DNA from: Pseudomonadota bacterium
GTDB taxonomy: Bacteria > Pseudomonadota > Alphaproteobacteria > Puniceispirillales > Marisalimonadaceae
Length of the DNA stretch: 64,000 bases
Reading direction: 5' to 3'
Assembly (NCBI GenBank): GCA_028382005.1
Contig: JAOESH010000002.1
Span: forward strand, 62,001 to 126,000
Shown: piece after piece, positions 45,403-64,000 of the stretch
Numbering within the stretch: the first letter of the stretch is position 1
How the letters are laid out: every line of letters starts with the position of its first letter
The notes under the pieces: generated by a model
Told to the model about the DNA's origin: nothing
The model's input: only the letters and a program-made list of their open reading frames with translations
The model's database searches: none
Program-made: the position numbers and the translations under genes

Positions 45403-46776
45403 TTATTTTGTACCAATTTTCATTTTATTTCTTATAAACCACAAACAAATTAAAGAAGGAATTACCATTATTGTGGTTAAAATAAAAAAAGTTCCCCAAT
45501 CTCCATTTAGCCAATCTACTAGAGCTCCTGAAGATGAAGCAAGAGTTGTTCTGCCAGCAGTTCCAATAGACGCAAGTAAAGCATACTGAGTAGCAGTATA
45601 AGTCCTATCAACCAATAATGAAATAAATGCAACAAATGCTACTGTTGCAAATGCTGCTGTAATGTCATCAGCAATAACAGCAATTGCAAATAATAATTCA
45701 GATTTGTCTGTCCAAGCTAAAACTGCAAATAGAAGGTTTGTTAGAGCCATCAATCCTCCAGCAAAGAACATTGTTTTTATTGTTCCTACCCTCATTGCCA
45801 TTAAACCGCCTAATAATGTGAAAACAACAGTTGTAATCCAACCAATTCCTTTTGAGTAAAGGGCAATCTCCCCTTTAGAAAATCCAATTTCTTTATAAAA
45901 AACAATAGACATACGACCAAGAAATGCTTCCCCAACTTTAAATAAGAAAACAAAACCTAATATTCCTGCAGCTATAGCAAATCCATTTTTTTTAAAGAAG
46001 CTAATTACAGGCCCACCTATAGTTCCTGTAATATATACAAAGAATTTAGTTATAAAGTTTCTAGATCCAATTTTTCTTGCAATGATTTCATCAGTTTCTT
46101 TTTGTTTTGCTTGTCTATTAGTTTCAATTGGCTCATCAACAAACATCAAACCAATATTCATTAAAATTATTATTGCCCCTAAAACTAAGAAAGTTGTTTG
46201 CCAGTAATCAGTAATACCAATATTTTCAAAATATTCTGCAGTAAATAAAGCAACAACACCTCCTAATTTATAACCAGTCCACCAACCAACCACCGCCATA
46301 GCAGCACCTGCTGCCATAGCTTTCCCTTCATTTTCATTGATTTGTTCAATTCTTAAAGCATCAACAGTTATGTCTTGTGTCGCCGAAGCTATAGCAATAA
46401 TCAATCCAACAGAAATTAATAAAGCTAAATTTTGAGTTGGATTTATAAAACTCCAAACTATCAAACTTAGTAAAATTACAACTTGCATTAAAACTATCCA
46501 TGCTCTTCTGTGGCCTAGTTTTTTTGTTAATAGAGGTATTTGGATTCTATCTATTATAGGAGCCCATAAATAATTAAATGCGTAGACACCAAAAATTAAG
46601 CCTGCCCAACCAATAGTCGATCTACTCAATCCTTCTTCTTTTAGCCAAAGGCTTAAACTACTGGCAATCAGGACCCATGGAAAACCACTTATGGCACCAA
46701 GAAGTAATATCCTTAACATTCTTATATCTTTATAAACTAAAACTGATTGAACCCAGTTTTGTTTTTTTTCTATCAT
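45403..46776 (-). CDS. ampG: Muropeptide permease AmpG-like MFS transporter
   Basis: A 457-residue MFS protein with about twelve to fourteen helices. It carries the AmpG pattern: MLRILLLGAISGFPWVLIASSLSLWLKEEGLS in the first helices, YAFNYLWAPIIDRIQIPLL, GHRRAWIVLMQ, and ASATQDITVDALRIEQ in the helix 4-5 region. AmpG imports GlcNAc-anhydroMurNAc muropeptides released by lytic transglycosylases. The family also holds acetyl-CoA transporters, but the ASATQDIxxDA block and the presence of anmK and a murQ homologue in this window favour AmpG. It is divergent from the YkuD gene, 94 bases apart. Confidence 0.85.
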   Translation of the reverse strand: MIEKKQNWVQSVLVYKDIRMLRILLLGAISGFPWVLIASSLSLWLKEEGLSRSTIGWAGLIFGVYAFNYLWAPIIDRIQIPLLTKKLGHRRAWIVLMQVVILLSLIVWSFINPTQNLALLISVGLIIAIASATQDITVDALRIEQINENEGKAMAAGAAMAVVGWWTGYKLGGVVALFTAEYFENIGITDYWQTTFLVLGAIIILMNIGLMFVDEPIETNRQAKQKETDEIIARKIGSRNFITKFFVYITGTIGGPVISFFKKNGFAIAAGILGFVFLFKVGEAFLGRMSIVFYKEIGFSKGEIALYSKGIGWITTVVFTLLGGLMAMRVGTIKTMFFAGGLMALTNLLFAVLAWTDKSELLFAIAVIADDITAAFATVAFVAFISLLVDRTYTATQYALLASIGTAGRTTLASSSGALVDWLNGDWGTFFILTTIMVIPSLICLWFIRNKMKIGTK

Positions 46777-46870: not shown

Positions 46871-47413
46871 ATGCATCAAAATTGGTTAGTTATAAATCTA
46901 AATAAAAATTATTTCCTAAAAGTTGGTAATAAAGCTTTTCGATGTCAAATAGGTGAAGGAGGCCTTAAAAACGCAGCAAAAAAAGTAGAAGGTGATAAAA
47001 CATCACCAATTGGGAAATGGTATTTAGAATCATTATATTATAGACCTGACAGGGCTTTAAGGCCAAAATTTAAGAAAAAAAATGTTTTAAAAATCAATCG
47101 AATTACAAAACACTGTGGATGGTGCTGTGATATTGGAAGTCTACATTACAACAAACATATAAACATTAATAATTTTCCATCGCTGAAAATTAATTATGAA
47201 AGATTATGGCGAGAAGATAATGCTTACGATATAATCATTGAGATTTCTCACAACACTAAACCTACTATTAAGAATAAAGGAAGCGCAATATTTATACATT
47301 GTAGTTTTGAAGATATTAGGCCAACAGCCGGTTGCATTGCTTTAAAAAAAAGAGATTTAATTAATTTAATTAAAAATCTTAAATATAATGCATGTATTGA
47401 AATTAAAAATTAA
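46871..47413 (+). CDS. YkuD (L,D-transpeptidase fold) protein without signal peptide
   Basis: A 180-residue protein made of one YkuD domain. EGDKTSPIGKWYLESLYYRPDR corresponds to the substrate-groove start. The catalytic pair is His143 and Cys155 in IFIHCSFEDIRPTAGCIAL. It begins MHQNWLVINLNKNYF with no signal peptide, membrane helix or lipobox, so it should be cytoplasmic unless exported unconventionally. Secreted family members make 3-3 cross-links; a cytoplasmic one would more plausibly trim muropeptides as an L,D-carboxypeptidase. It is divergent from ampG. There is no Shine-Dalgarno; TATAAT at 46860-46865 ends 5 bases before the ATG, so a leaderless transcript is possible. Confidence 0.85.
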   Translation: MHQNWLVINLNKNYFLKVGNKAFRCQIGEGGLKNAAKKVEGDKTSPIGKWYLESLYYRPDRALRPKFKKKNVLKINRITKHCGWCCDIGSLHYNKHININNFPSLKINYERLWREDNAYDIIIEISHNTKPTIKNKGSAIFIHCSFEDIRPTAGCIALKKRDLINLIKNLKYNACIEIKN

Positions 47414-51445: not shown

Positions 51446-52600
51446 TTAACGTTTTATTAAATAACTTGCTAATGCTTTTGTTTGTGTTTTTATTATTCTT
51501 TCAGAGGTAAAATCGTTTGTCATCATCTGAAGGTCTTGTTTTAAGCCTAACAAAAAAGGGTACCACTCTCTAGATAGTGGACTTTTCCATTTCCAAAGCA
51601 GAAAATCCAAACTTTCAATAGCTTTTGTTGATATATTCGCTTTGTTGATAACAGGACGTTGTCCAAAGTTAGGTTTCATAAAATAGTCGCTTATATCAAA
51701 AAATTGGGAAGGGACATTATGTCTGTTAAGTGTTTTTTTCCAAATTGATTTTGGGTGTAAATTATTTCTAGTAGCTTTTATAATATCCAAAATAAGTAAA
51801 TCTGTTTCAATTAATCCTGTTGGATTTATCATAATATCATTTATTTCTGAACGACCGACGTAAGGTCCTAAAAATATTCTCCTAGGGCAGTAATCGTTGG
51901 AATAAAAGTTATCCCAAATTACTACTTTTGTAGAAACAATTTTAGATATGTTATTGATTGTTGATTTATTGACGTTTTTAGCAACAATATTTTTACCTGA
52001 ATAAAATGTAACATTATTTTTATTAATGTACTTTCCATAATCAAGTAAGTAATTTTTATCCTCATAAACTAGTTGATCAGAGTAAATCCTTGGGACAACA
52101 TAAACAGGTTTATTCAGAAGAACTGATAATTTATTAGCTAATAAGGCATGAAAAAAACCTTCAGAAGAAAAAGGGCCATAAATTTTTTGAAAATTATTAG
52201 GCAAGTCGTCAAATAATAATGCAATATCGTCAGCACCTTTATTTAAAAAAAAACGTGCTTTTTTTAAAAGTGTAGTTAGATCATTACTTTTTTTATTTTG
52301 GTCAATCTTTTCTTCTAATTCTATGAAATTAAAAGTAAATCCTGGAGATATTCCTATTATCACCTTAATGTTGTTTTGTTTAGCTTTTTGACAAAATTTA
52401 TTAAAATTTTGGCTCCATTCATAATTATACTTTAACTTCCAATGGACTCTATGTTTTTCATCTTCTTTAGGAGCATAAAAATAAAAATTCATTTTATTTT
52501 TTTTTAATCTTGATATGATTCTATATCTTTCACCCCACGTTAATAGTCGGCCATAATAACCTTCGATATAACCATTTAATGATTTATAATTACTTTTCAT
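51446..52600 (-). CDS. GH84-type beta-N-acetylglucosaminidase without signal peptide
   Basis: A 384-residue TIM-barrel glycosidase matching GH84 (O-GlcNAcase/NagJ family). LNGYIEGYYGRLLTWGERY starts the barrel, MNFYFYAPKEDEKHR follows, and IALLFDDLPNNF holds the catalytic pair Asp131-Asp132. NDYCPRRIFLGPYVGR and a downstream NPTGLIETD-type segment complete the active site. GH84 uses substrate-assisted hydrolysis of terminal GlcNAc. No signal peptide or accessory domain is present, so action in the cytoplasm is expected. The family is best known from gut and pathogenic bacteria acting outside the cell. It lies near a PIG-L deacetylase gene (divergent) and anmK. Confidence 0.88.
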   Translation of the reverse strand: MKSNYKSLNGYIEGYYGRLLTWGERYRIISRLKKNKMNFYFYAPKEDEKHRVHWKLKYNYEWSQNFNKFCQKAKQNNIKVIIGISPGFTFNFIELEEKIDQNKKSNDLTTLLKKARFFLNKGADDIALLFDDLPNNFQKIYGPFSSEGFFHALLANKLSVLLNKPVYVVPRIYSDQLVYEDKNYLLDYGKYINKNNVTFYSGKNIVAKNVNKSTINNISKIVSTKVVIWDNFYSNDYCPRRIFLGPYVGRSEINDIMINPTGLIETDLLILDIIKATRNNLHPKSIWKKTLNRHNVPSQFFDISDYFMKPNFGQRPVINKANISTKAIESLDFLLWKWKSPLSREWYPFLLGLKQDLQMMTNDFTSERIIKTQTKALASYLIKR

Positions 52601-52656
52601 TAATTTAACTTACTTTAATTACAGAGCTTATATTAAACAAATTAGGAGAAAATAAA

Positions 52657-53346
52657 ATGAAAATTTTAGCAATTGGTGCACACCCAGACGATATAGAAAT
52701 TTTTATGTATGGAACACTCTCTGCTTGTTTAAATAGGGGTGATGAAATAGCCATGATTGTTGTTACTGATGGGAGTGCAGGCAATGTTTTATCCAAAGAC
52801 AATTTAGCTGAAATAAGAAAAAAAGAAACTATTAATGCATTAAAATATATTGGGAAACCTACTTTTTTAGAGTTTTCTGATGGAGAACTATCAATTCAAA
52901 TTGAAGCAATTAATATTTTAAAAAGACAAATAAATAAATTAAATCCAGATTTAATTATAACTCATGCACCAGAAGATTATCACCCCGATCACAGAGCGTT
53001 ATCAGAATTTGTTAAAAATAGTGCGGGCTTTAAATTTCCTGTTATTTATTGTGAGACACTATTAGGTATAAACTTTAACCCTCAATACTATATAAATATA
53101 AGTGAATATTTTGAAGCCAAGAAAAAAGCAATTTTAAAACATAAAAGTCAGTCTCCAGAAAAATTTTTAAAGGCAATCGAGATTAACAACATATTTAGAG
53201 CCGCTCAATGTAATGCAGGCAATAATAGTTATGCTGAAGTATTTAGATTTGATTCGTCTTTTCCTTTCGTCGATATATCATCACTATTGCCTGAAAGACT
53301 ATCAATAAGACCGTATTATAAAAATTTACCTGATTCTTTGATTTAA
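52657..53346 (+). CDS. PIG-L/LmbE-family deacetylase
   Basis: Zinc-dependent N-deacetylase of 229 residues. The metal motif AHPDDIEIFMYGTL (residues about 9-22) and the second HAPEDYHPDHRALSEF are complete. VVTDGSAGN lies between them. Family members remove acetyl from GlcNAc-containing molecules such as GlcNAc-inositol, GlcNAc-malate, chitobiose or antibiotic intermediates. TTAGGAGAAAATAAA precedes the ATG, a strong ribosome-binding site. It is divergent from the GH84 gene by 56 bases. Its stop shares TTAA (53343-53346) with anmK. The context suggests amino-sugar metabolism, but the substrate is not known. Confidence 0.9.
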   Translation: MKILAIGAHPDDIEIFMYGTLSACLNRGDEIAMIVVTDGSAGNVLSKDNLAEIRKKETINALKYIGKPTFLEFSDGELSIQIEAINILKRQINKLNPDLIITHAPEDYHPDHRALSEFVKNSAGFKFPVIYCETLLGINFNPQYYINISEYFEAKKKAILKHKSQSPEKFLKAIEINNIFRAAQCNAGNNSYAEVFRFDSSFPFVDISSLLPERLSIRPYYKNLPDSLI

Positions 53347-54434
53347 GCTAAATTAATTTTCCCACCAACACACGGCAGAAGAACTCCAGTTGTCTTAGGA
53401 AAAGTTATTGGTAAGTTGTTAACTTTACGAGCAGCAAGATAGGCAATCATTTCAGCTTCTATAAAATCTCCTGGGATACCAATTTCGTCAGCCTTAATTA
53501 TGTCAAAAGAAAAACTATCTGTTATTCGTTTCAATAAATATTTATTGTGTTGTCCACCTCCCATTACAACAATCATTTTGGGCTGAGAAGGTAAAAAGCT
53601 AATACCCTTTAAAATAGAATGAATTGTGAACTCTAAAAATGTAGCTAAGATATCAGAAGGATTGTTATTGAACTTTAATTTATTAACAAAAAAGGTGAAA
53701 TCTAGACGATCCAAAGATTTAGGGTATGTTTTTTTAAAATATGGTAATTTCAAAAATTCTTGTATTTTTTCTAAGTCAGGCTTACCTTTTGAGGCAATTA
53801 TACCATCTCTATCAAAATTAACACCTAAGTTTTCTTGGCAATAAATATCCATTATTCCATTACCAGGACCAACATCAAAACCTAATAGTTGGTATCCATC
53901 CCAATAACTAATATTTGAAATTCCTCCAATATTTAAAAAACAACATGGTAGAATGAGGTTAAGTTTTTTCATTAGTAATTTGTGATAGATAGGAGATATA
54001 GGCGCACCTTCACCACCATGTTTAATATCATTTTGTCTAAATTGCGAAACAACATTTGTACTGCATAATTTAGCTAATAATTCTCCATCACCTATTTGGA
54101 CAGTTAATTTTTTTGAAGGGTTATGAAAAACAGTTTGACCATGAAAGCCTACTAAATCTGGATTAATACCTGATAAGTTAATAATTTTTTTTATTGCAAG
54201 GTTATTGTCGTGGGAAATATTCTTTGACAATTTTTTATAAAAATCTATGTCTTTTTTTAATATATTATAATTAAAAACGTATTTCTTTAAAATAGTAATA
54301 GTTTCTTTACTATAATTTGAAATAATTTGATATCCAGTTCGATCAAGGGTTTTTCCATCTGTATATACTAATGACGCATTAATGCCGTCCATGCTAGTAC
54401 CTGACATTAATCCAATTACGTAGTTTTTTTTCAT
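53343..54434 (-). CDS. anmK: Anhydro-N-acetylmuramic acid kinase AnmK
   Basis: Phosphorylates and hydrates 1,6-anhydroMurNAc to MurNAc-6-phosphate, a step of cell-wall recycling. The 363-residue protein begins with YVIGLMSGTSMDGINASLVY, the phosphate-binding signature. GFHGQTVFHNPSKKLTVQIGDG contains the conserved Gly-His-Gly-Gln-Thr. CFLNIGGISNISY and GFDVGPGNGIMD follow, then VMGGGQHNKYLL. All are AnmK markers within the ASKHA kinase fold. It begins one base after the galE stop on the same strand. A MurQ homologue that would take the product lies at 62722. Confidence 0.96.
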   Translation of the reverse strand: MKKNYVIGLMSGTSMDGINASLVYTDGKTLDRTGYQIISNYSKETITILKKYVFNYNILKKDIDFYKKLSKNISHDNNLAIKKIINLSGINPDLVGFHGQTVFHNPSKKLTVQIGDGELLAKLCSTNVVSQFRQNDIKHGGEGAPISPIYHKLLMKKLNLILPCCFLNIGGISNISYWDGYQLLGFDVGPGNGIMDIYCQENLGVNFDRDGIIASKGKPDLEKIQEFLKLPYFKKTYPKSLDRLDFTFFVNKLKFNNNPSDILATFLEFTIHSILKGISFLPSQPKMIVVMGGGQHNKYLLKRITDSFSFDIIKADEIGIPGDFIEAEMIAYLAARKVNNLPITFPKTTGVLLPCVGGKINLA

Positions 54435-55412
54435 TTAGACTAACAAACTTTTTTCCCAATTTAAGGAAGTTTTTATAATTGTTTCAATATCATTGTGTAA
54501 AGGTTGCCATTTATATTTAGATTTTATTTTATTGCAATCTGCAACAACATAAGGGTTGTCTCCTTCTCTTTTATTACCAATTTTTACCAAAAAATTATTT
54601 CCAGAAACATCTTTCACCTTTTGTATTACTTCTGAAACACTTAATCCTATGCCGTAACCAAGATTGCATATATCAGAGTTTCCTCCATCAATAAGATGCT
54701 GGAGTGCCAAAATATGTCCAGAAATTAAATCAGAAATATGAATGAAATCTCTAACACAAGTTCCATCTTGTGTATCATAATCATTCCCATAAACTTCTAC
54801 TAATTTTCTCTTTTGTAGAGCACATTCAACACAAACTTTTATTAGGTGCGTAGAGTTTTCACTTATTTGCCCAGATCTCATTTTCAAGTCTGCTCCAGCA
54901 ACATTAAAATATCTTAAAATAAAAAACTTTAATTCGGAGGACTTTGATATATCTTGAATAATTTTTTCACACATTTGTTTAGAGGACCCGTATGGGTTAA
55001 GTGGGTTTAATCTGTTATTTTCTTTTATTATAATATTTTTGGATATGTCATAAACTGCTGCTGTAGAGGAGAAAACTAATTTTTTCGTCTTGGATTTTGA
55101 TAAAAGGTTAACAAATCTTAAAGTATTTACGGTATTATTTTGATAATATTTTACAGGATCATAAATACTTTCTTCAACCTGAATGCTTCCTGCAAAATGT
55201 GCTACAGCGTCAAATTTATGTTCAGTTAAAATTTTATTAACTAGATCTAAATTGCTGATATTGCCTTCGATAAAAATAGCTTTTGAGGGGATGAGATTTT
55301 TAGAACCAGTAGATAGATCGTCTAATATAACGACATCATGACCTTGGTCTAAAAGAGATAAAGCCATATGACTGCCAATATAACCTGCACCACCTGTAAT
55401 AAAAACTTTCAT
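54435..55412 (-). CDS. galE: UDP-glucose 4-epimerase GalE
   Basis: Extended SDR of 325 residues interconverting UDP-glucose and UDP-galactose (or their N-acetyl forms). The NAD loop is ITGGAGYIGSHMALSLLD. VILDDLSTGSKNLIP, AHFAGSIQVEESI with the GalE-specific block, YGSSKQMCEKII with Tyr-x3-Lys, and RYFNVAGADLKMRSGQ follow. The C-terminal GTCVRDFIHISDLISGHILAL is strongly diagnostic. Product use in surface glycan is likely from context. It directly precedes anmK with no gap. It is divergent from gmd, with 86 AT-rich bases between them including TATAAT at 55445-55450. Confidence 0.95.
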   Translation of the reverse strand: MKVFITGGAGYIGSHMALSLLDQGHDVVILDDLSTGSKNLIPSKAIFIEGNISNLDLVNKILTEHKFDAVAHFAGSIQVEESIYDPVKYYQNNTVNTLRFVNLLSKSKTKKLVFSSTAAVYDISKNIIIKENNRLNPLNPYGSSKQMCEKIIQDISKSSELKFFILRYFNVAGADLKMRSGQISENSTHLIKVCVECALQKRKLVEVYGNDYDTQDGTCVRDFIHISDLISGHILALQHLIDGGNSDICNLGYGIGLSVSEVIQKVKDVSGNNFLVKIGNKREGDNPYVVADCNKIKSKYKWQPLHNDIETIIKTSLNWEKSLLV

Positions 55413-55498
55413 TTACATTAACCTATAATTAAAATATAAATTTTTATAATATCTACTATAAGAGTTTATTAATTAATAGAGTTATAAAGATCTTACAT

Positions 55499-56551
55499 AT
55501 GAAAGACAAACAGAAAATAGCATTAATTACTGGAGTTAATGGTCAAGATGGCGCCTATCTAGCAGAGTTTTTATTGAAAAAAAATTATATAGTCCATGGC
55601 ATAAAAAGAAGATCTTCGTTAATTAATACAGCTAGAATTGATCATTTTTATGTAGATCCTCAGATTGAAGATAAAAAATTTTATCTACATTATGGTGATA
55701 TGACAGATTCTATGAACATTTTTAAACTAATCAAAGAAACTAAGCCAGATGAAATCTATAACTTAGCTGCACAAAGTCATGTAAAGGTTAGTTTTGAATC
55801 ACCTGAGTATACTGCAAATTCAGATGGAATAGGCGTTTTAAGATGCCTTGAAGCAATTAGGCTGTTAGGTTTAGAAAAGAAGGTTAGATTTTATCAGGCA
55901 TCTACATCTGAACTTTATGGCAAAGTTATGGAAGTGCCTCAAAATGAGAAAACACCTTTTTACCCACGAAGCCCATATGCTATAGCAAAATTATATGCAT
56001 ATTGGATGGTTATAAACTATAGAGAGGCATACAATATACACGCATCCAACGGTATATTATTTAATCATGAAGGTCCAACACGCGGTGAAACTTTTGTTTC
56101 ACGTAAAATAACAATGGCTGTAGCTAAAATTTATTATGGTTTACAAGATAAATTATATTTAGGAAATTTAAGCTCAAAAAGGGACTGGGGACATGCAAAG
56201 GATTATGTAAAGGGAATGTGGCAAATACTTCAGCACGACATAGCAGATGATTTTGTTTTATCTAGTGGCAAAATGTATTCTGTAAGACATTTTGTAAACT
56301 TAGCGTTTAACAAAGTAAATATAGATATAGTTTGGAATGGATCTGGTATCAAAGAAAAAGGCTTTGACAAGCAAACTGGTAAATGTTTAGTAAAAGTTGA
56401 TCCTCGTTATTTTAGACCTGCGGAGGTAGATCAACTTCTAGGAGATTCTACAAAAGCAAAAAATATTCTAGGTTGGGAGACAAAAATCTCTTTTGATGAC
56501 TTAGTCTCTGAAATGGTTGAAAATGATTTAAGTAAAATTAAAAATGAATAA
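55499..56551 (+). CDS. gmd: GDP-mannose 4,6-dehydratase
   Basis: Makes GDP-4-keto-6-deoxymannose, precursor of GDP-fucose, GDP-rhamnose, GDP-perosamine and others. The 350-residue protein has [36 protein letters not shown], the [18 protein letters not shown] block, [29 protein letters not shown] with the catalytic Tyr-x3-Lys, and [16 protein letters not shown]. Fucose or rhamnose synthesis needs a second enzyme. The usual partner fcl is reduced to a stub just downstream, and no rmd or per gene is visible in the window. manC follows after the stub, supplying GDP-mannose. Confidence 0.96.
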
Positions 56552-56650
56552 TATAAAAAATTTAATTTAATAGATAGATTTATTTTTGTTGTAGGTCATA
56601 ATGGTATGATCGGTTCCGCAATTTTAAATAAGATTATCTTTGTTAAATAA
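56552..56650 (+). pseudogene. fcl: Remnant of fcl (GDP-L-fucose synthase), 5' end only
   Basis: Right after the gmd stop, in the same frame, 32 codons stay open: DRFIFVVGHNGMIGSAILNK, then IIFVK and TAA at 56648-56650. This matches the N-terminal NADP-binding strand of Fcl/WcaG (usually IFVAGHxGMVGSAI). The other 280 or so residues are absent, and manC begins 12 bases later. There is no ATG in this frame. An ATG at 56544, overlapping the gmd end, would read eight codons and stop, which suggests a frameshift near the old start. The order gmd-fcl is standard, so this is best read as a deletion remnant. Confidence 0.75.
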
Positions 56651-56661
56651 GGGAAGTTTTT

Positions 56662-58065
56662 TTGTACAACTTATTTCCAGTTATCTTAAGTGGCGGCTCA
56701 GGGACAAGATTATGGCCTGCTAGTAGAAAGTCGTTACCAAAACAATTTAAAAACTTTAATAACATTGGCACTCTTTTTTCCCATACCCTAAATAGGGTAA
56801 AAGAATTAAACAATTGTAACAATTTAATAATAGTTTCTTCTAGGGATTACGAGTTTTTATTAAAAAAAGAAATTGAGAAATACAACAAAGAAAGTTTATT
56901 AATTCTTGAAGAAATATCCAAAAATACATCCGCAGCCATTTTTTTTGCAGCTAAGTTGGCATTAGAAAAATCAGCCAACGCTCTTTTGTGTATTATGCCT
57001 TCAGATCACTGGATTCCTGATTTTAAAGAATTTAAAAGTGTAATTAAAGACAGTATTAAATATGCAGAACAACAATATTGGATTACTTACGGCATTAAGC
57101 CTTCAGAGCCTTCAACAGGTTTTGGATATATCAAAGTTAGTGATACTTATCTTGAAAACATTAAAGACGTTGAGCATTTTATTGAAAAACCAGATTTTGA
57201 GATGGCAAAAGAACTTTTACAATCAAAAAGTTATTATTGGAACTCTGGAATATTTTTAGTTTCAGCTAAAAAAGTTTTAAAAAGCTTTGACGATCATAAT
57301 CCAGAAATTAGAAGTATTCTAGAAAAGGTATGGTCAAATAGAGAAAATTTCCATAATAGAAGTATCATTAAGAAATCATTTATGGAAGACATACCTAACA
57401 TTTCAATCGATAAAGCAATAATGGAATATGAGCACTTTATTAAATTAGTATCGTATGATGGTAAATGGAGTGATATTGGAAATTGGGATTCTATGAACAG
57501 ACTTTTAGTCAATCATAAAAATAGTGATGATGCTAATGCTATTCTCATTGATAGTAAGAATACTGATATACAATCTTCAGAAAGATTGATAGTTGGAATT
57601 GGACTTCAAGACTTAACAATTGTAGATGAAATGGACGCCACTTTAATTTTTAAAAAGGGTGAAGCGGAAAAGGTTAAAGAAGTAGTTAAAAAATTACAAA
57701 AAGATAATAAAAAAATAGCTGATCAATATAACTTTGAGTACAGACCATGGGGTAAATTTGAAGTGTTATTGGACTCTGACGAATGTAAGGTTAAAAAAAT
57801 TATTGTAGACCCCTCAAAATCATTGTCATACCAATATCATTTCAAAAGATCCGAACATTGGACCATTGTTTCGGGTAAGGCTGAAGTAATTTTAAACGGT
57901 ATTAGAAAAACGTATCATGTGGGTGAGTCAGTAATTATTCCAACTCAAGTAAAACATTCATTAACAAATAATGGTAAAGATTTATTAATTATTATTGAGG
58001 TGCAATATGGTTCATATTTTGGAGAAGACGATATAATAAGGGTCTCAGATCCTTACAATAGATAA
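56662..58065 (+). CDS. manC: Mannose-1-phosphate guanylyltransferase / mannose-6-phosphate isomerase
   Basis: Bifunctional type II enzyme of 467 residues giving GDP-mannose. The nucleotidyltransferase half has FPVILSGGSGTRLWPASRKSLPKQF, IMPSDHWIPD, TGFGYIK, FIEKPD and YYWNSGIFLVSA. The C-terminal cupin half, for the isomerase, has EYRPWGKFEVL, SYQYHFKRSEHWTIVSGKAEV and HVGESVIIPTQVKHSLTN. The start is a TTG at 56662, with AAGGGAAG about 7 bases upstream; the protein then begins as expected (YNLFPVILSGG). It forms a GDP-sugar group with gmd. It ends 14 bases from the convergent dehydratase gene. Confidence 0.96.
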   Translation: MYNLFPVILSGGSGTRLWPASRKSLPKQFKNFNNIGTLFSHTLNRVKELNNCNNLIIVSSRDYEFLLKKEIEKYNKESLLILEEISKNTSAAIFFAAKLALEKSANALLCIMPSDHWIPDFKEFKSVIKDSIKYAEQQYWITYGIKPSEPSTGFGYIKVSDTYLENIKDVEHFIEKPDFEMAKELLQSKSYYWNSGIFLVSAKKVLKSFDDHNPEIRSILEKVWSNRENFHNRSIIKKSFMEDIPNISIDKAIMEYEHFIKLVSYDGKWSDIGNWDSMNRLLVNHKNSDDANAILIDSKNTDIQSSERLIVGIGLQDLTIVDEMDATLIFKKGEAEKVKEVVKKLQKDNKKIADQYNFEYRPWGKFEVLLDSDECKVKKIIVDPSKSLSYQYHFKRSEHWTIVSGKAEVILNGIRKTYHVGESVIIPTQVKHSLTNNGKDLLIIIEVQYGSYFGEDDIIRVSDPYNR

Positions 58066-58079
58066 AAAATATAATTTAA

Positions 58080-59960
58080 TTAATTACTTTTATAAAACGT
58101 ACCAATATTAATAAATAAATTTTTAACTAGTTTTATATTTCCATCACATAAGGCTTTTTTTAAGGTTTCCAAATGTATTTTTAAATGTTTCCATTCAATA
58201 AATTTTTCCTGAGCTATGAAAATTTTATCTTGCTTTGTTTTTATTGGACTGTTTCCTATTAAAAGCTCTTCGTATAATTTTTCACCTTCACTTAAACCAA
58301 TAACTTTTATCTCAATATCTCCATTTGAATTATTTTGATCTTTAATTGTTTTTCCAGATAATTCTATCATTTTTTTTGCTAAATCAATTATCCTAATAGG
58401 ATCTCCCATGTTTAAGACAAAAACTTCTCCTCCTTTAGTTATTATAGACGATTTAATTACTAAACTAACAGCTTCATTAATTGTCATAAAAAATCTTGTC
58501 ACTTTAGGATCAGTTAGAGTAATTGGCCCACCTTTTTTAATTTGATTCAGAAACTTAGGAACAACCGAGCCAGATGATCCTAATACATTTCCAAATCTCA
58601 CCATAGAATACTTTGTATTTTTTGATTTTTTTTGAAATGCTTGTATAATAAGCTCAGATAATCTTTTTGATGCCCCCATTATGTTGCTTGGTCTAACAGC
58701 TTTATCAGTACTTATAAGAACAAAATTTGATAATTTGTACTTTAAGGAAAGTTCAGCTAAATTTAAAGTTCCAAAAACATTATTATTTATGCCAGTAATA
58801 GGGTTTTCTTCAACCAATTTGACATGTTTGTATGCTGCAGCATGGAAAATAGTATCAGGTTTGTATTTTTGAAATATTTTTTCTATGTTTGGTTTGTCAA
58901 GTATTGAAACCAAACATGGAATTATTTTTACTTGTTTAGAAAGATTTGATGATTCAATTTCTTGTTGTATAGAATATAAGGAAAACTCGTTTAATTCTAT
59001 AATAATTATTGTTTTAGGTGACAATTGAGAAATTTGGCGACATAGTTCACTCCCTATAGAACCGCCTCCTCCAGTAATAATAATATTTTTATTTTTGACA
59101 TTAGAATTAGAGGATAATGATTTTAAGTTAATTGAAGATCTTCCAAGTAATTCATCAATGTTTAAACTATTAATATTAGAGCTGTAAATATTACCAGAAG
59201 TTAATTCATTTAAATTCGGTATAGAACGAATGGGTATGTCTAAAATTTGAATACTAGATAATATTTTAATTTTATTATGAATTGTCAAAGAAGAAATTGC
59301 TAAGAAAACCAACTCAATATTAAATTTCTCTTTTAGTTTATTAAGCTGTTTAGGATTGTAAATAGTTCTATTGTTTATTTTAGTACCTTGTAAAGAGACG
59401 TTGTCATCTATAAAACCAACACAATTGATTTCAATGTTACCATCAATGATCGTAGCTAACTGTCTACCTGAATCACCTGCACCATATATGAAACAATTTT
59501 TAGTCTTTATCTTTTTTGTTGTGTTATTTAAAAATTTTAAGAATATATACTTTATTAAAGCCCGGGAGGATAAAATACTAAATGATAATAAAATTGGCTG
59601 AATAATTCCAATTGTTCTAGGTGTGTTTTCAAAACTATTTAAAGTAAATATGAAACAAAAAACTAAGCTATATAAAAGTAATACCTTAGTTAATTGTATA
59701 AATGTCTCTAGACCAGAGTAGCGATTAATTGATTTGTGAATTTGAAAAAAAAATATTAAACCTATCAAAAGTATTAAAGATATAAATGAAGGGTATAAAG
59801 GAATTTCATAAATAGAATAAAATTTATCCATTCTTAAAGAAAATGCTAACCATAAAGTAAAATAGCAAATACAAATATCAAATATAATAAAGATATATCT
59901 GTTTGGACCTAGGTTGTTATAAATATAATTAATAAGTGCAAAAATTATTCGTCTCAACAT
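58080..59960 (-). CDS. Membrane nucleotide-sugar 4,6-dehydratase (WbpM/CapD/PglF family)
   Basis: A 626-residue protein with four N-terminal transmembrane helices, a first Rossmann-like domain (CFIYGAGDSGRQLATII) and a C-terminal SDR domain (IIITGGGGSIGSELCRQI). The catalytic block is LISTDKAVRPSNIMGASKRLSELI, with Met-Gly in place of the usual Tyr of Tyr-x3-Lys, as in WbpM/FlaA1-type enzymes. It should convert UDP-GlcNAc to a 4-keto-6-deoxy product used for the first sugars of O-antigen repeats (bacillosamine, QuiNAc or FucNAc). It lies 34 bases downstream of the initiating sugar transferase gene, the normal pairing. Confidence 0.93.
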   Translation of the reverse strand: MLRRIIFALINYIYNNLGPNRYIFIIFDICICYFTLWLAFSLRMDKFYSIYEIPLYPSFISLILLIGLIFFFQIHKSINRYSGLETFIQLTKVLLLYSLVFCFIFTLNSFENTPRTIGIIQPILLSFSILSSRALIKYIFLKFLNNTTKKIKTKNCFIYGAGDSGRQLATIIDGNIEINCVGFIDDNVSLQGTKINNRTIYNPKQLNKLKEKFNIELVFLAISSLTIHNKIKILSSIQILDIPIRSIPNLNELTSGNIYSSNINSLNIDELLGRSSINLKSLSSNSNVKNKNIIITGGGGSIGSELCRQISQLSPKTIIIIELNEFSLYSIQQEIESSNLSKQVKIIPCLVSILDKPNIEKIFQKYKPDTIFHAAAYKHVKLVEENPITGINNNVFGTLNLAELSLKYKLSNFVLISTDKAVRPSNIMGASKRLSELIIQAFQKKSKNTKYSMVRFGNVLGSSGSVVPKFLNQIKKGGPITLTDPKVTRFFMTINEAVSLVIKSSIITKGGEVFVLNMGDPIRIIDLAKKMIELSGKTIKDQNNSNGDIEIKVIGLSEGEKLYEELLIGNSPIKTKQDKIFIAQEKFIEWKHLKIHLETLKKALCDGNIKLVKNLFINIGTFYKSN

Positions 59961-59994
59961 TTTATTTCACTCTAACAATGCAATTTAGTAGGTA

Positions 59995-60561
59995 TTAATG
60001 CTTTATATCTTTCATTTTGATAACTTTTAAAAAGGTTAGATATAAAATTTTTAGATCTAAAATAAAAGACTTGTTGTCTTCATAAAATCGTTCTATTGAA
60101 ACTTTTTCATGTATGGAGACCTCATCTCTACCGTTAACTTGAGCCCAGCCAGTTAAACCAGGTGTCGATAAATGAATATCAAATTTTTCTCTTAATGTCA
60201 TTAAATCAAATTGATTAAATAAAGCCGGTCTAGGTCCAACAAATGACATGTCTCCTATTAAGATACTCCATAATTGTGGTATTTCATCTAAGCTTGTTTT
60301 TCTTAAAAAACTACCAATCTTTGTTACATATTTTTCGCTTTCATTTAACAAATTTGTTGCTAACTGCGGGGTGTTTGTTTTCATGCTTCTAAATTTGGGC
60401 ATTAAAAAAAAATTTTTATTTTTACCAAATCTTTTACTATAAAATATGGCAGGTCCAGGTGTATCTAATTTAATAATAATAAAAATACATAAAAATGGGA
60501 AAAACAAAATTATGATACACAATATTGATAATATAATGTCAAAATATCTTTTTATATACAT
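59995..60561 (-). CDS. Initiating sugar transferase (PglC/WcaJ-type polyprenyl-phosphate glycosyl-1-phosphate transferase)
   Basis: Transfers the first sugar-1-phosphate of a repeat unit to undecaprenyl phosphate. This short form has 188 residues with one membrane-embedded N-terminal helix (ILSILCIIILFFPFLCIFIII). DTPGPAIFYSKRFGKN, FRSMKTN, TKIGSFLRKTSLDEIPQLWSIL, GDMSFVGPRPAL and LSTPGLTGWAQVNGRDE are all family blocks. The size and the Asp-Glu (SLDEIPQ) match the PglC group. It is placed upstream of the WbpM-type dehydratase, so the first sugar is likely a 6-deoxy-HexNAc. No acetyltransferase or aminotransferase for it is in the window. Confidence 0.95.
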   Translation of the reverse strand: MYIKRYFDIILSILCIIILFFPFLCIFIIIKLDTPGPAIFYSKRFGKNKNFFLMPKFRSMKTNTPQLATNLLNESEKYVTKIGSFLRKTSLDEIPQLWSILIGDMSFVGPRPALFNQFDLMTLREKFDIHLSTPGLTGWAQVNGRDEVSIHEKVSIERFYEDNKSFILDLKILYLTFLKVIKMKDIKH

Positions 60562-60801
60562 GGTATTTTATTAACATAAATAAATTGAAAAAAAAATATT
60601 GAATTATAGTATATAGAATTTTACTAATGATGTGAATAATGTTTAAGTATGCAAATAAAATTCAAATTAATTAATCATTTTTAATAAATAACAATTTTAA
60701 GTCTATTGACGTCATATAAAAGGATTTGGAAATATGTTACTTGCATAATCAAAATGAAAAATATGTCTAGGTGTTTTCTCTAAAATATATTTTTTTTAAA
60801 T
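60562..60801. other. Gap upstream of the sugar transferase gene
   Basis: About 240 very AT-rich bases separate the end of the decayed neuA-like gene from the sugar transferase start, both leftward. It should hold the promoter of the transferase-dehydratase pair. On the minus strand, TATAAT lies at 60603-60608, and TTCACA at 60631-60636 is a weak -35, but 22 bases apart. I see no gene or structured RNA here. Confidence 0.3.
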
Positions 60802-61423
60802 TTATTTTTTCCATTGTTTGCTATTGTGATTGAATAAAAAATTTGCCCACAATAGCTCTAACTCAGTGTCTATATCTACTGATCTCTTTTGGGACGCAAT
60901 TTAATTTTAATTTACCTTCAAACATATTATTATTTTTTAATACAAAGTTATGATTTATAACATAACATGCTGTTGTCATATCGAAATACTTTTCTGCATA
61001 CTTTTCGTTATTCTCTCTGATAATATTGAATGACGGGTTTCTATAACTATCTGTAAAAGATATTACACCATCACAGTCGTTTGAATTATAAATATCAATT
61101 GCTTTTTCTATATCAATTTTATTTCTTAAAGGAGCTGTCGTTGGAAGAATTACAATCATTTTAATTTTTTCTAATTTAAAGTTTGTAATTGCATGTTGCC
61201 ATACCTCCCATTCAGGTCTTAAAAAAGGAATTTTTGCACCATATTTTTTTCCTTTATTGGCAATATTAATGCAGTCTGTAGAAAGTATTAATTCATTAAT
61301 ATTTTTGCAACTCTGTGCATGAGAAATGCTATGAGCAAGTAATGATTTATTATTTATTTTTAACAAATTTTTTCCAGGAAGTCCTTTAGAGCCTCCCCTT
61401 GCACATATCAAGCATAAAATCAT
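60802..61423 (-). pseudogene. Frameshifted acylneuraminate cytidylyltransferase (NeuA/LegF/PtmB-like)
   Basis: Would activate a sialic-acid-like sugar as its CMP form. The frame from 61423 gives CLICARGGSKGLPGKNLLKINNKSLLAHSI, STDCINIANKGKKYGA, ILPTTAPLRNKIDI and YFDMTTACYVIN, all NeuA markers. It then ends early at 60863 with VPKEISRYRH. In another frame the normal ending follows at once: RSVDIDTELELLWANFL, running to a stop at 60802. The two join if GAGATC at about 60881-60886 is short by two bases of a GAGAGA run. In addition FLRPEWEVWQHAI lacks about eight residues normally found between RP and the EW. Two lesions suggest a dead gene; the frameshift alone could be a sequence error. Confidence 0.8.
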
Positions 61424-61443
61424 AATGTCCTGACTATGTTGAA

Positions 61444-62481
61444 TTATTTAAATGATCGTTTGATTTTTTTTAATTCTTCTGGTGTACCAATATCAATCCA
61501 TTCCTCATGCATATGAAATATATATACGCGTTTATTTTTATCTTTTAATTTTTTTAAAATATGAGGCATAGAAATTTTTTGATTTTCTTTTATAAACTTT
61601 GTCACTTTGCTTTCAACAACATAAATACCGGCATTTATGTAAGTTATCCATGATGGTTTTTCATCAAAATCTAATAGTTCAATTCCACTATATCTAATTA
61701 CCCCATATGGATTTTTAATCTCATTTTTTAGAACTGCCATTGTGGCAATGCCATCATTTAGAATATGAAAATCCAATAATTTTTTATAACCAATTTTAGA
61801 GATGATGTCTCCGTTAGTTATTACTATTGGTCCATTAAATTTACTCATAAGCTTCAAGCTTCCTCCAGTACCTAGAGGTTTTTTTTCCTTAATATAAGTT
61901 ATTTTAACATCAAAATTTTCACCATTTCCAAAATAGTTCTCAATAACTTCAGATTTATAATGTGTCGCTATAAAAATATTTATGAATTTTTCATCTCTCG
62001 CTTTTTTTATAATATGTTCTAAAACTGGTCTACCACCTATTTTTAACATAGGTTTAGGACAATTCTTAGTTAATTTACCTAATCTTGTTCCGAAGCCACC
62101 TGCCATTATTAATAAAGGGGGATTTTCTTTAATACTTAAAAATGTGTCTGGGAAATAACAATTAATTATTTTTTGGTTTTCATCTACAACTGGTAATGAT
62201 TTGTATTTTTCTTTGACAAATAAATTATAAACATCAGTTTTTGTCGTGTTTGCAAGCACATATTTTGGTTTTTTGTTCATAATTAAACTGATATCATCTT
62301 TTAATGATAGGCCGTTTGCTAAACCTTTTCTAATATCTCCATCAGTAATAGTAGCCAATAGTTTATTGGATTTATCTACAACTATTACTATCAACAATCC
62401 TGTTCTTGAAAGTGAATTAATAGCGTCTATAATCAATTTGTTCTCATTAAGGAGAATTGATTTCAAATTTTCTTTTATCAT
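61444..62481 (-). CDS. CBS-domain nucleotidyltransferase (PtmE-like)
   Basis: A 345-residue protein. Two CBS motifs occupy about residues 1-120 (VVDKSNKLLATITDGDIRKGL, SLPVVDENQKIINCYF). A sugar-phosphate nucleotidyltransferase follows: LLIMAGGFGTRLGKLTKNCPKPMLKIGGRPVLEHII, KKPLGTGGSLKLM, ITNGDIIS and NAGIYVVESKV, ending in EWIDIGTPEELKK. The combination matches PtmE, the glucosamine-1-phosphate guanylyltransferase of legionaminic acid synthesis in Campylobacter, and other GDP- or NDP-sugar enzymes. CBS domains may sense adenosine nucleotides. It is followed after 20 bases by the decayed neuA-like gene, so the two probably belonged to one nonulosonic acid pathway. Confidence 0.87.
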   Translation of the reverse strand: MIKENLKSILLNENKLIIDAINSLSRTGLLIVIVVDKSNKLLATITDGDIRKGLANGLSLKDDISLIMNKKPKYVLANTTKTDVYNLFVKEKYKSLPVVDENQKIINCYFPDTFLSIKENPPLLIMAGGFGTRLGKLTKNCPKPMLKIGGRPVLEHIIKKARDEKFINIFIATHYKSEVIENYFGNGENFDVKITYIKEKKPLGTGGSLKLMSKFNGPIVITNGDIISKIGYKKLLDFHILNDGIATMAVLKNEIKNPYGVIRYSGIELLDFDEKPSWITYINAGIYVVESKVTKFIKENQKISMPHILKKLKDKNKRVYIFHMHEEWIDIGTPEELKKIKRSFK

Positions 62482-62721
62482 TAAATCTCACTTATGTGAT
62501 TTCTAAGAGAAATATGTTTATTAAATATGGATAGTAATTTACATCAAAAAAAACACGATTAACAATCTTTTCTTTCTTAAACATAGTCAACGTATTACTT
62601 CTTATATAATGAATAATTATTTTGTTTGTTATTTAATTTTTATTTGAAAAAAATTATCTATTCAAAATTAAATAGTTGATGTAAAATTATTTATATATTA
62701 TTTAATTTCATAGAAAAAATA
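62482..62721. promoter_or_regulatory. Divergent control region between the PtmE-like and MurQ-like genes
   Basis: The 240 AT-rich bases between two divergent genes should carry promoters for both transcription units. TATAAT occurs near 62603 on the plus strand, but it lies over 100 bases before the MurQ-like start and lacks a convincing -35. I see no open frame, tRNA or strong hairpin. Confidence 0.3.
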
Positions 62722-63459
62722 ATGAGTACAGAAAACAGACCACCAGAAAATTTGTGGGTAGACAAAATGTCTATCGATAAAGCAACACAGGTAATGTTGG
62801 ATAATCAAGAAAAATCAATTTGGGCTATTCAAAAAGCTTTACCTCAAATAAATATTGTTATCTCCAAAATATATGAAAAATTAAAAAATAATTCTAAAAG
62901 TAGACTAATATTTGCTGGAGCTGGTTCATCTGCAAGAATTGGGGTGCAAGATGCTGTTGAATTATATCCAACCTTTGGATGGCCCAAAAATAGAGTAGGT
63001 TTTATGATTGCGGGTGGTAAAGAGGCTATAACAACCTCTGTTGAGGGAGCTGAAGATAATATATTTGATCCACATGACATTGCTGATGAAATTAATTTAT
63101 CATCAAATGACATTTTAATAGCTCTTGCAGCTAGTGGTAACACACCTTTTACAAGAGAGTGTTTAATACAGTCAAATTTAAAAAACTCACTATCAATAGC
63201 AATTTCAAATAACAAAGAAGGCTTAATATTAAAAGAAGCAAATCATTGTATTGTTTTAGATACAGGTTATGAAATAATAGCAGGATCTACTCGATTAAAA
63301 GCAGCTACAGCTCAAAAAATTTGTTTGAATATTTTATCTTCCATGATAATGACCAAGTTAGGTTTTGTGAAGAACGGTTTAATGACACACTTCATTCCTT
63401 CAAATCAAAAGTTAAAAAAAAGAAAAATAGAAGTTTTAAAACAAATAAAGAAAATATAA
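62722..63459 (+). CDS. MurQ-like SIS-domain protein (N-acetylmuramic acid 6-phosphate etherase homologue), short form
   Basis: Starts STENRPPENLWVDKMSIDKA, like MurQ leaders, then one SIS domain: LIFAGAGSSARIGVQDAVELYPTFG and the GKEAITTSVEGAEDN block. Both hold Glu residues matching catalytic Glu83 and Glu114 of E. coli MurQ. AASGNTPFTRECL and EIIAGSTRLKAATAQKICLNILSS complete the family pattern. MurQ splits MurNAc-6-phosphate into GlcNAc-6-phosphate and lactate. The protein has 245 residues against about 300; the C-terminal helical domain is missing. Activity is therefore likely but not certain. With anmK it would complete the anhydroMurNAc salvage route. No ribosome-binding site is clear. 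A second SIS gene starts 4 bases downstream. Confidence 0.82.
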   Translation: MSTENRPPENLWVDKMSIDKATQVMLDNQEKSIWAIQKALPQINIVISKIYEKLKNNSKSRLIFAGAGSSARIGVQDAVELYPTFGWPKNRVGFMIAGGKEAITTSVEGAEDNIFDPHDIADEINLSSNDILIALAASGNTPFTRECLIQSNLKNSLSIAISNNKEGLILKEANHCIVLDTGYEIIAGSTRLKAATAQKICLNILSSMIMTKLGFVKNGLMTHFIPSNQKLKKRKIEVLKQIKKI

Positions 63460-63463
63460 ATAA

Positions 63464-64000
63464 ATGGTAAATATTAGTAAAAGTTTCTTAAATGATTATT
63501 TGGATAATTTAAATAAATTATCTAATGATTTGGATAAGTCCACTTTAATTAGTGTTTCTGAAGAAATAATTGAATCTGTAAATTCTAAAGGATCTGTCAT
63601 CATAGTTGGAAACGGAGGCAGTGCAGCTATTGCTAGTCACGTTGCGGTTGATTTTCTGAAAGCTGTAGGGATAAGAGCTTTTACTTTTAATGAAAGTAGT
63701 TTAATTACTTGCTATGCTAATGATTTTGGATATGAAAATTGGGTTAAAGAGGCTTTAAAAAGTCATGCTCAACCAAATGACATTGTAATTTTAATTAGTA
63801 GCAGCGGAGAATCTCTTAACATTTTAAACGCCGCGAAATATACAAGAAAGAATGATTTAAGTTTAGTTACATTTAGTGGATTTAATAAGAATAATTCTCT
63901 TTCAAATTTAGGTGAATTTAATATATGGGTTGATAGTTCTAATTATAATTATGTAGAGATTATCCATAATCAATTTTTGCTGATGTTAGTAGATTTGGTT
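63464..64000 (+). CDS. GmhA-like SIS-domain sugar isomerase (partial, runs off the window)
   Basis: The frame from the ATG at 63464 is open to the last base, 179 codons. IIVGNGGSAAIASHVAVDFLKA (about residues 43-64) and LISSSGESLNILNAAKY are the SIS sugar-phosphate-binding loops. NYVEIIHNQFLLMLVDLV near the end matches the C-terminal helix of phosphoheptose isomerase (GmhA), which carries catalytic Glu and His. GmhA makes D-glycero-D-manno-heptose 7-phosphate from sedoheptulose 7-phosphate; related proteins in glycan clusters act on other phosphosugars. It lies 4 bases after the MurQ-like gene, so they are co-transcribed. The end is outside the window. Confidence 0.85.
   Translation, partial: MVNISKSFLNDYLDNLNKLSNDLDKSTLISVSEEIIESVNSKGSVIIVGNGGSAAIASHVAVDFLKAVGIRAFTFNESSLITCYANDFGYENWVKEALKSHAQPNDIVILISSSGESLNILNAAKYTRKNDLSLVTFSGFNKNNSLSNLGEFNIWVDSSNYNYVEIIHNQFLLMLVDLV

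Follow-up and report, generated by a model that had tools for sequence, protein, structure and literature searches.

A GH84 glucosaminidase encoded near anmK as a candidate replacement for NagZ in peptidoglycan recycling of SAR116 bacteria

In NagZ, the GH3 hexosaminidase of peptidoglycan recycling, catalysis relies on a His-Asp general acid and proceeds through a covalent intermediate. GH84 enzymes belong to another family and use a substrate-assisted mechanism with a double Asp; work on those of bacteria has mainly treated them as secreted glycosidases or as models of human O-GlcNAcase (OGA), with no housekeeping role attached to them. Our search of open-access papers turned up no earlier report that places a GH84 enzyme in recycling. 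Recycling in Alphaproteobacteria operates with NagZ in Caulobacter (PMC13046382), and in the same class YejBEF-YepA replaces AmpG in Agrobacterium (PMC9790009), a non-orthologous swap of one recycling component, although it concerns a transporter and Agrobacterium keeps NagZ. A further precedent for a non-orthologous recycling enzyme is ElsL, a leaderless YkuD protein that is the cytosolic L,D-carboxypeptidase of Acinetobacter (PMC8649774), but this replaces LdcA and not NagZ.

We examined a 64,000-nucleotide stretch of DNA (the window), a piece of one contig from a 1.81-Mb alphaproteobacterial SAR116 genome that is 80.7% complete. SAR116 bacteria are abundant in marine waters, and related public records bear the titles SAR116 cluster, Puniceispirillum or Alphaproteobacteria. 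The initial annotation of the window proposed that a GH84 enzyme clustered with a PIG-L deacetylase and AnmK could replace NagZ, and regarded deglycosylation of proteins or of glycan precursors as equally likely. Comparative genomics supports the replacement well, through the absence of GH3, the synteny of GH84 with AnmK and the recycling genes around them, and the other roles are now much less likely. We consider it very probable that this GH84 is the cytosolic peptidoglycan-recycling hexosaminidase of SAR116 and takes the place of GH3 NagZ. It would resemble NagZ in being cytosolic and exo-acting on terminal beta-GlcNAc, a function read from genomic context for GH84, and is like it genetically tied to AmpG, an AmpD-type amidase and AnmK; it differs in family and catalysis. 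As judged from sequence, the arrangement is consistent with a clean exchange of one enzyme for another within a core pathway, and gives a GH84 clade a candidate core function in a very common group of marine bacteria. If this is correct, a central muropeptide-recycling hydrolase is exchangeable between unrelated families, and the absence of NagZ is no proof that recycling is absent.

Recycling genes of the window

The clustering of the three genes was borne out by intact open reading frames and profile scores above the cut-offs. The GH84 beta-N-acetylglucosaminidase (51446–52600, minus strand; 384 aa) scores 153.9 bits with PF07555 against a cut-off of 25, the PIG-L/LmbE family de-N-acetylase (52657–53346, plus strand) 95.5 bits with PF02585 against 28.2, and AnmK, the anhydro-N-acetylmuramic acid kinase (53343–54434, minus strand), 239 bits with PF03702 and 368.6 bits with the NCBIfam equivalog model NF007141, for which the cut-off is 352. 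These genes do not constitute a single operon in the window, as PIG-L is transcribed from the other strand, in divergent orientation to GH84 and in convergent orientation to AnmK.

The AmpG, YkuD and MurQ homologues attributed to the window are likewise all present. An AmpG family muropeptide importer (45403–46776, minus strand; TIGR00901, 366.6 bits with a cut-off of 350) and a leaderless YkuD-domain protein (46871–47413, plus strand; PF03734, 38.9 bits) lie 4–6 kb from GH84, and MurQ, the N-acetylmuramic acid 6-phosphate etherase (62722–63459, plus strand; NF003915, 248 bits with a cut-off of 168), is about 8 kb past AnmK. MurQ covers model positions 1–246 of 300 and is about 50 C-terminal residues short; MurQ is of similar short length in other SAR116 loci (e.g. 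L079). We liken the YkuD protein to ElsL by its domain and the lack of a signal sequence as judged by reading, and it has no match among PDB sequences at E 1. The amidase and NlpC/P60 pair of this genome is on another contig (L164).

A polysaccharide locus begins directly after AnmK (54435–64000), as it also does in the closest relatives (L041 and L042). Its genes encode GalE, GDP-mannose dehydratase, mannose-1-phosphate guanylyltransferase, a FlaA1/WbpM-like protein and a sugar transferase, together with a CMP-sugar transferase, a CBS-plus-nucleotidyltransferase protein resembling PtmE and a GmhA-like SIS protein.

The GH84 enzyme and its clade

The window enzyme carries PF07555 only, and no GH3 domain (PF00933) was detected in it by profile search. 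The Asp131-Asp132 catalytic pair is invariant in an alignment of 52 sequences, as are the other −1 subsite residues K45, Y173, W229, N231, D236 and N259, and an AlphaFold model (pLDDT 92.7) has the TIM barrel and helical domain of the family. The first barrel strand begins at residue 9, which leaves no room for a leader, so that the intact catalytic pair and missing signal peptide noted at the outset are both upheld. Residues 6–384 of the model superimpose on human OGA with a Z-score of 38.5 (rmsd 3.1, 358 residues aligned), and the Z-score with OgOGA is 35.5; the likeness to these enzymes thus extends over the whole chain and to the same −1 subsite residues. However, identity to them is only about 20–26%, and the window GH84 is unlike the OGAs in its length of 384 aa, its compact helical C-terminal part, its R171 and R368 and its recycling neighbours.

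The AnmK-linked GH84s form one clade in the tree (support 96/96). R171 is present in 46 of its 47 aligned members and R368 in all 47, whereas T and W replace them in all five unlinked sequences, and human OGA likewise has T at the R171 position in the alignment. That these two arginines mark the linked clade is suggestive only, the comparison being with just five unlinked sequences. The sister group consists of Fibrobacteres and one gammaproteobacterial record, and no recycling genes lie near GH84 in its loci. Other alphaproteobacterial GH84s fall in a distant clade; all their genomes have GH3, and no AnmK linkage was seen in those checked (G504 not among them).

GH84 of the AnmK-linked type is also carried by six genomes titled Granulosicoccaceae (3–5 Mb), with no GH3 in any of the six (completeness figures for these are not given). 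The gene order is amidase-AnmK-GH84 in one locus (L064); in others AnmK and GH84 share a single overlapping base (L067), follow an amidase-NlpC/P60 pair and AmpG (L069), or are arranged as M19-amidase-AmpG-GH84 with AnmK-MurQ nearby (L075). In the tree the SAR116 GH84s enclose those of Granulosicoccaceae, which suggests transfer of GH84 between the two lineages, and together with the single linked clade may indicate one origin spread by transfer.

Distribution of GH84, AnmK and NagZ, and alternative roles

We surveyed an order-wide set of 136 genomes, mostly fragmented metagenome-assembled genomes and single-cell genomes, a near-complete set of 43 (completeness of 90% or more, contamination of 5% or less), and 387 Alphaproteobacteria sampled across the class; the hexosaminidase families searched in SAR116 were GH3, GH20 and GH84. 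GH3 (PF00933) was not detected in the window genome, within the limits of its 80.7% completeness, nor in any of the 43 near-complete genomes, and it was absent from 134 of the 136 genomes of the order; the absence holds in several single-contig genomes (G077, G082, G124 and G135), and the same search was positive in 10 of 14 control genomes. A nagZ gene elsewhere in the genome, which would have spoken against the proposal, was therefore not found. As judged by reading, the two GH3 matches look like contamination or misassembly: the fragment in G097 is NagZ-like and adjoins scpA/scpB on a contig of 3.8 kb, in a genome with 7% contamination, and the G120 match is a fragment within a chimeric ORF. 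Both were set aside as unreliable. GH20, considered as a substitute for NagZ, was ruled out by its absence from all 45 genomes searched.

Elsewhere in the class AnmK is usually accompanied by GH3. The class sample contains AnmK in 308 genomes and GH3 in 332, and GH3 is present in 292 of the 302 AnmK genomes outside SAR116, versus 0 of 6 within it. Both GH3 and GH84 are missing from ten alphaproteobacterial genomes that carry AnmK (G177, G194, G200, G224, G230, G292, G325, G348, G501 and G529), and AnmK is thus not strictly dependent on a known hexosaminidase gene; further NagZ replacements or assembly gaps are possible reasons.

Co-occurrence of GH84 with anmK, proposed as a check on the initial reading, is strong. 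The two are together in 80 of the 136 genomes, with GH84 alone in 5, AnmK alone in 5 and neither in 46, and in the near-complete set the corresponding numbers are 30, 1, 1 and 11 (Fisher's test, p < 1e-7 in both sets, a guide only, as the genomes share ancestry and are not phylogenetically independent). Nor is the GH84 neighbourhood random among relatives: wherever a single contig holds both genes (73 genomes), they invariably share a strand and lie 49 bp to 6.6 kb apart, with a median of 786 bp between profile matches. The proximity of GH84 and AnmK is not due to chance, as they are neighbours across the order.

The wider cluster is similarly conserved. Of the 45 alphaproteobacterial loci that span 14 kb or more, 44 contain AmpG, 43 YkuD (usually adjoining AmpG), 42 AnmK, 41 PIG-L, 38 MurQ and 32 an AmpD-like amidase. 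There is one Amidase_2 match per genome, located in most within the recycling cluster and mainly beside AmpG, and the cluster amidase either has an NlpC/P60 domain fused to it or is paired with one; an M19 dipeptidase gene directly follows GH84 in many genomes. Several SAR116 genomes encode the AmpD-like amidase, SH3 and NlpC/P60 in one protein (e.g. L130:6631–7860), which is split into two genes in others. Our first-look amidase filter gave false negatives, real genes being recovered by blastp, and an apparent amidase loss from the window's family was ruled out by an approximately 60%-identical amidase in L043, L044, L047, L050 and L061; that one search overlooked these genes advises caution about absence calls generally. 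Eleven near-complete SAR116 genomes lack both GH84 and AnmK (G098, G099, G101, G103, G104, G106, G107, G122, G086, G012 and G049), and no amidase was found in these either, as if the whole recycling pathway had been lost together.

These patterns bear on other roles that might be envisaged for GH84. One such view makes GH84 a bacterial protein O-GlcNAcase, the role proposed in Thermobaculum terrenum, that adjoins anmK by chance. In its favour, the characterised GH84s nearest to this one have O-GlcNAc proteins as substrates, human OGA and OgOGA are its nearest relatives of solved structure, and T. terrenum possesses both a functional OGA and a conserved OGT (PMC4683255). We regard this view as very improbable, since the conserved neighbours are recycling genes and not glycosyltransferases, NagZ is missing, GH84 is missing jointly with AnmK from the same eleven near-complete genomes, and R171 and R368 set the AnmK-linked clade apart from its unlinked sister sequences, which have T and W there. 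Hydrolysis of GlcNAc glycosides from outside the cell, such as imported chitooligosaccharides, is more improbable still: although unrelated alphaproteobacterial GH84 genes have permease genes of ABC sugar transporters (L152) or a gene resembling a GlcNAc kinase (L158) as neighbours, both as judged by reading, such transporter- or kinase-linked GH84s are in the distant clade (L152 itself is absent from the tree), and the importer of the SAR116 cluster is AmpG, with no chitinase or sugar ABC transporter conserved there. The least probable role is the trimming of GlcNAc from envelope polysaccharide or lipid-linked precursors, to which the sugar-nucleotide genes at 54–64 kb might point, polysaccharide genes directly following AnmK both here and in the closest relatives; however, in other SAR116 families and in Granulosicoccaceae the neighbours are AnmK, AmpG, the amidase and MurQ and not polysaccharide genes, and GH84 has neither a leader nor a membrane anchor.

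The PIG-L deacetylase and the proposed route

With GH84 as the NagZ replacement, we propose a route that follows established recycling biochemistry with three swaps, and for which we infer every substrate in SAR116 and the order of the steps. AmpG would import anhydromuropeptides, from which the leaderless YkuD protein, as a putative cytosolic L,D-carboxypeptidase, would strip the terminal D-Ala; the AmpD-like amidase would free the peptide, to be cut further by the NlpC/P60 and M19 enzymes. GH84 would split GlcNAc-beta-1,4-anhydroMurNAc, with or without peptide, to release GlcNAc. AnmK would then yield MurNAc-6-phosphate, MurQ would convert this to GlcNAc-6-phosphate, and PIG-L (NagA in some genomes) would produce GlcN-6-phosphate for re-entry via GlmM/GlmU. 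A more far-reaching version, in which the GH84 clade is a hexosaminidase specialised for anhydromuropeptides, R171 and R368 confer specificity on the anhMurNAc side, NagZ, NagA and LdcA are replaced by GH84, PIG-L and YkuD, and the cluster moved between alpha- and gammaproteobacteria, may be correct, but we hold it tentatively and lean slightly against it.

The PIG-L protein has the conserved metal motifs HPDD and DYHxDH (H8, D10, D11 and H108/H111), and its PF02585 match, HXDD motif and distal His place it in the PIG-L/LmbE family. It does not match TIGR00221, the NagA model; its equivalog matches are to BshB and Mca only and all below cut-off, and a bacillithiol or mycothiol enzyme was rejected at a best match of 91 bits to BshB1 (cut-off 182). 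NagA is an amidohydrolase unrelated to PIG-L, and any likeness of PIG-L to it could be one of function only, but PIG-L appears in its place. Of the 32 near-complete genomes with GH84 or AnmK, 21 have the cluster PIG-L, 7 have NagA (TIGR00221 above cut-off), none has both and 4 have neither (G124, G132, G134 and G135), an exclusivity with a hypergeometric p of about 1e-4 if ancestry is ignored. Both states occur within one genus (g6), and NagA adjoins AnmK in G114, G117 and G119. This exclusivity, together with NagA in the cluster where PIG-L is missing, indicates that PIG-L probably replaces NagA, and PIG-L most likely performs NagA's role.

It was initially suggested that the deacetylase might act on GlcNAc. 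This calls for refinement: de-N-acetylation of GlcNAc derivatives is common to NagA and the archaeal diacetylchitobiose deacetylases, the nearest solved relatives of PIG-L, and the alternation with NagA makes GlcNAc-6-phosphate the likelier substrate. The main rival, in which PIG-L deacetylates free GlcNAc (or the disaccharide), is a lesser but genuine prospect: the diacetylchitobiose deacetylases favour it, although they act on GlcNAc2, and no NagK-like BadF kinase was found in any PIG-L-type locus, the loci alone being considered, versus several of NagA type (the locus of G072, and L096 and L099), as if PIG-L replaced a NagK-NagA pair. MurQ is however kept in PIG-L-type loci, so GlcNAc-6-phosphate would still be produced and need a deacetylase, and no Caulobacter strain devoid of both NagA copies could be obtained (PMC13046382), which also speaks against free GlcNAc. 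The NagK-like BadF kinase genes lie by MurQ or NagA, at L132:10579–11514, L096:925–1785 and L099:1579–2640.
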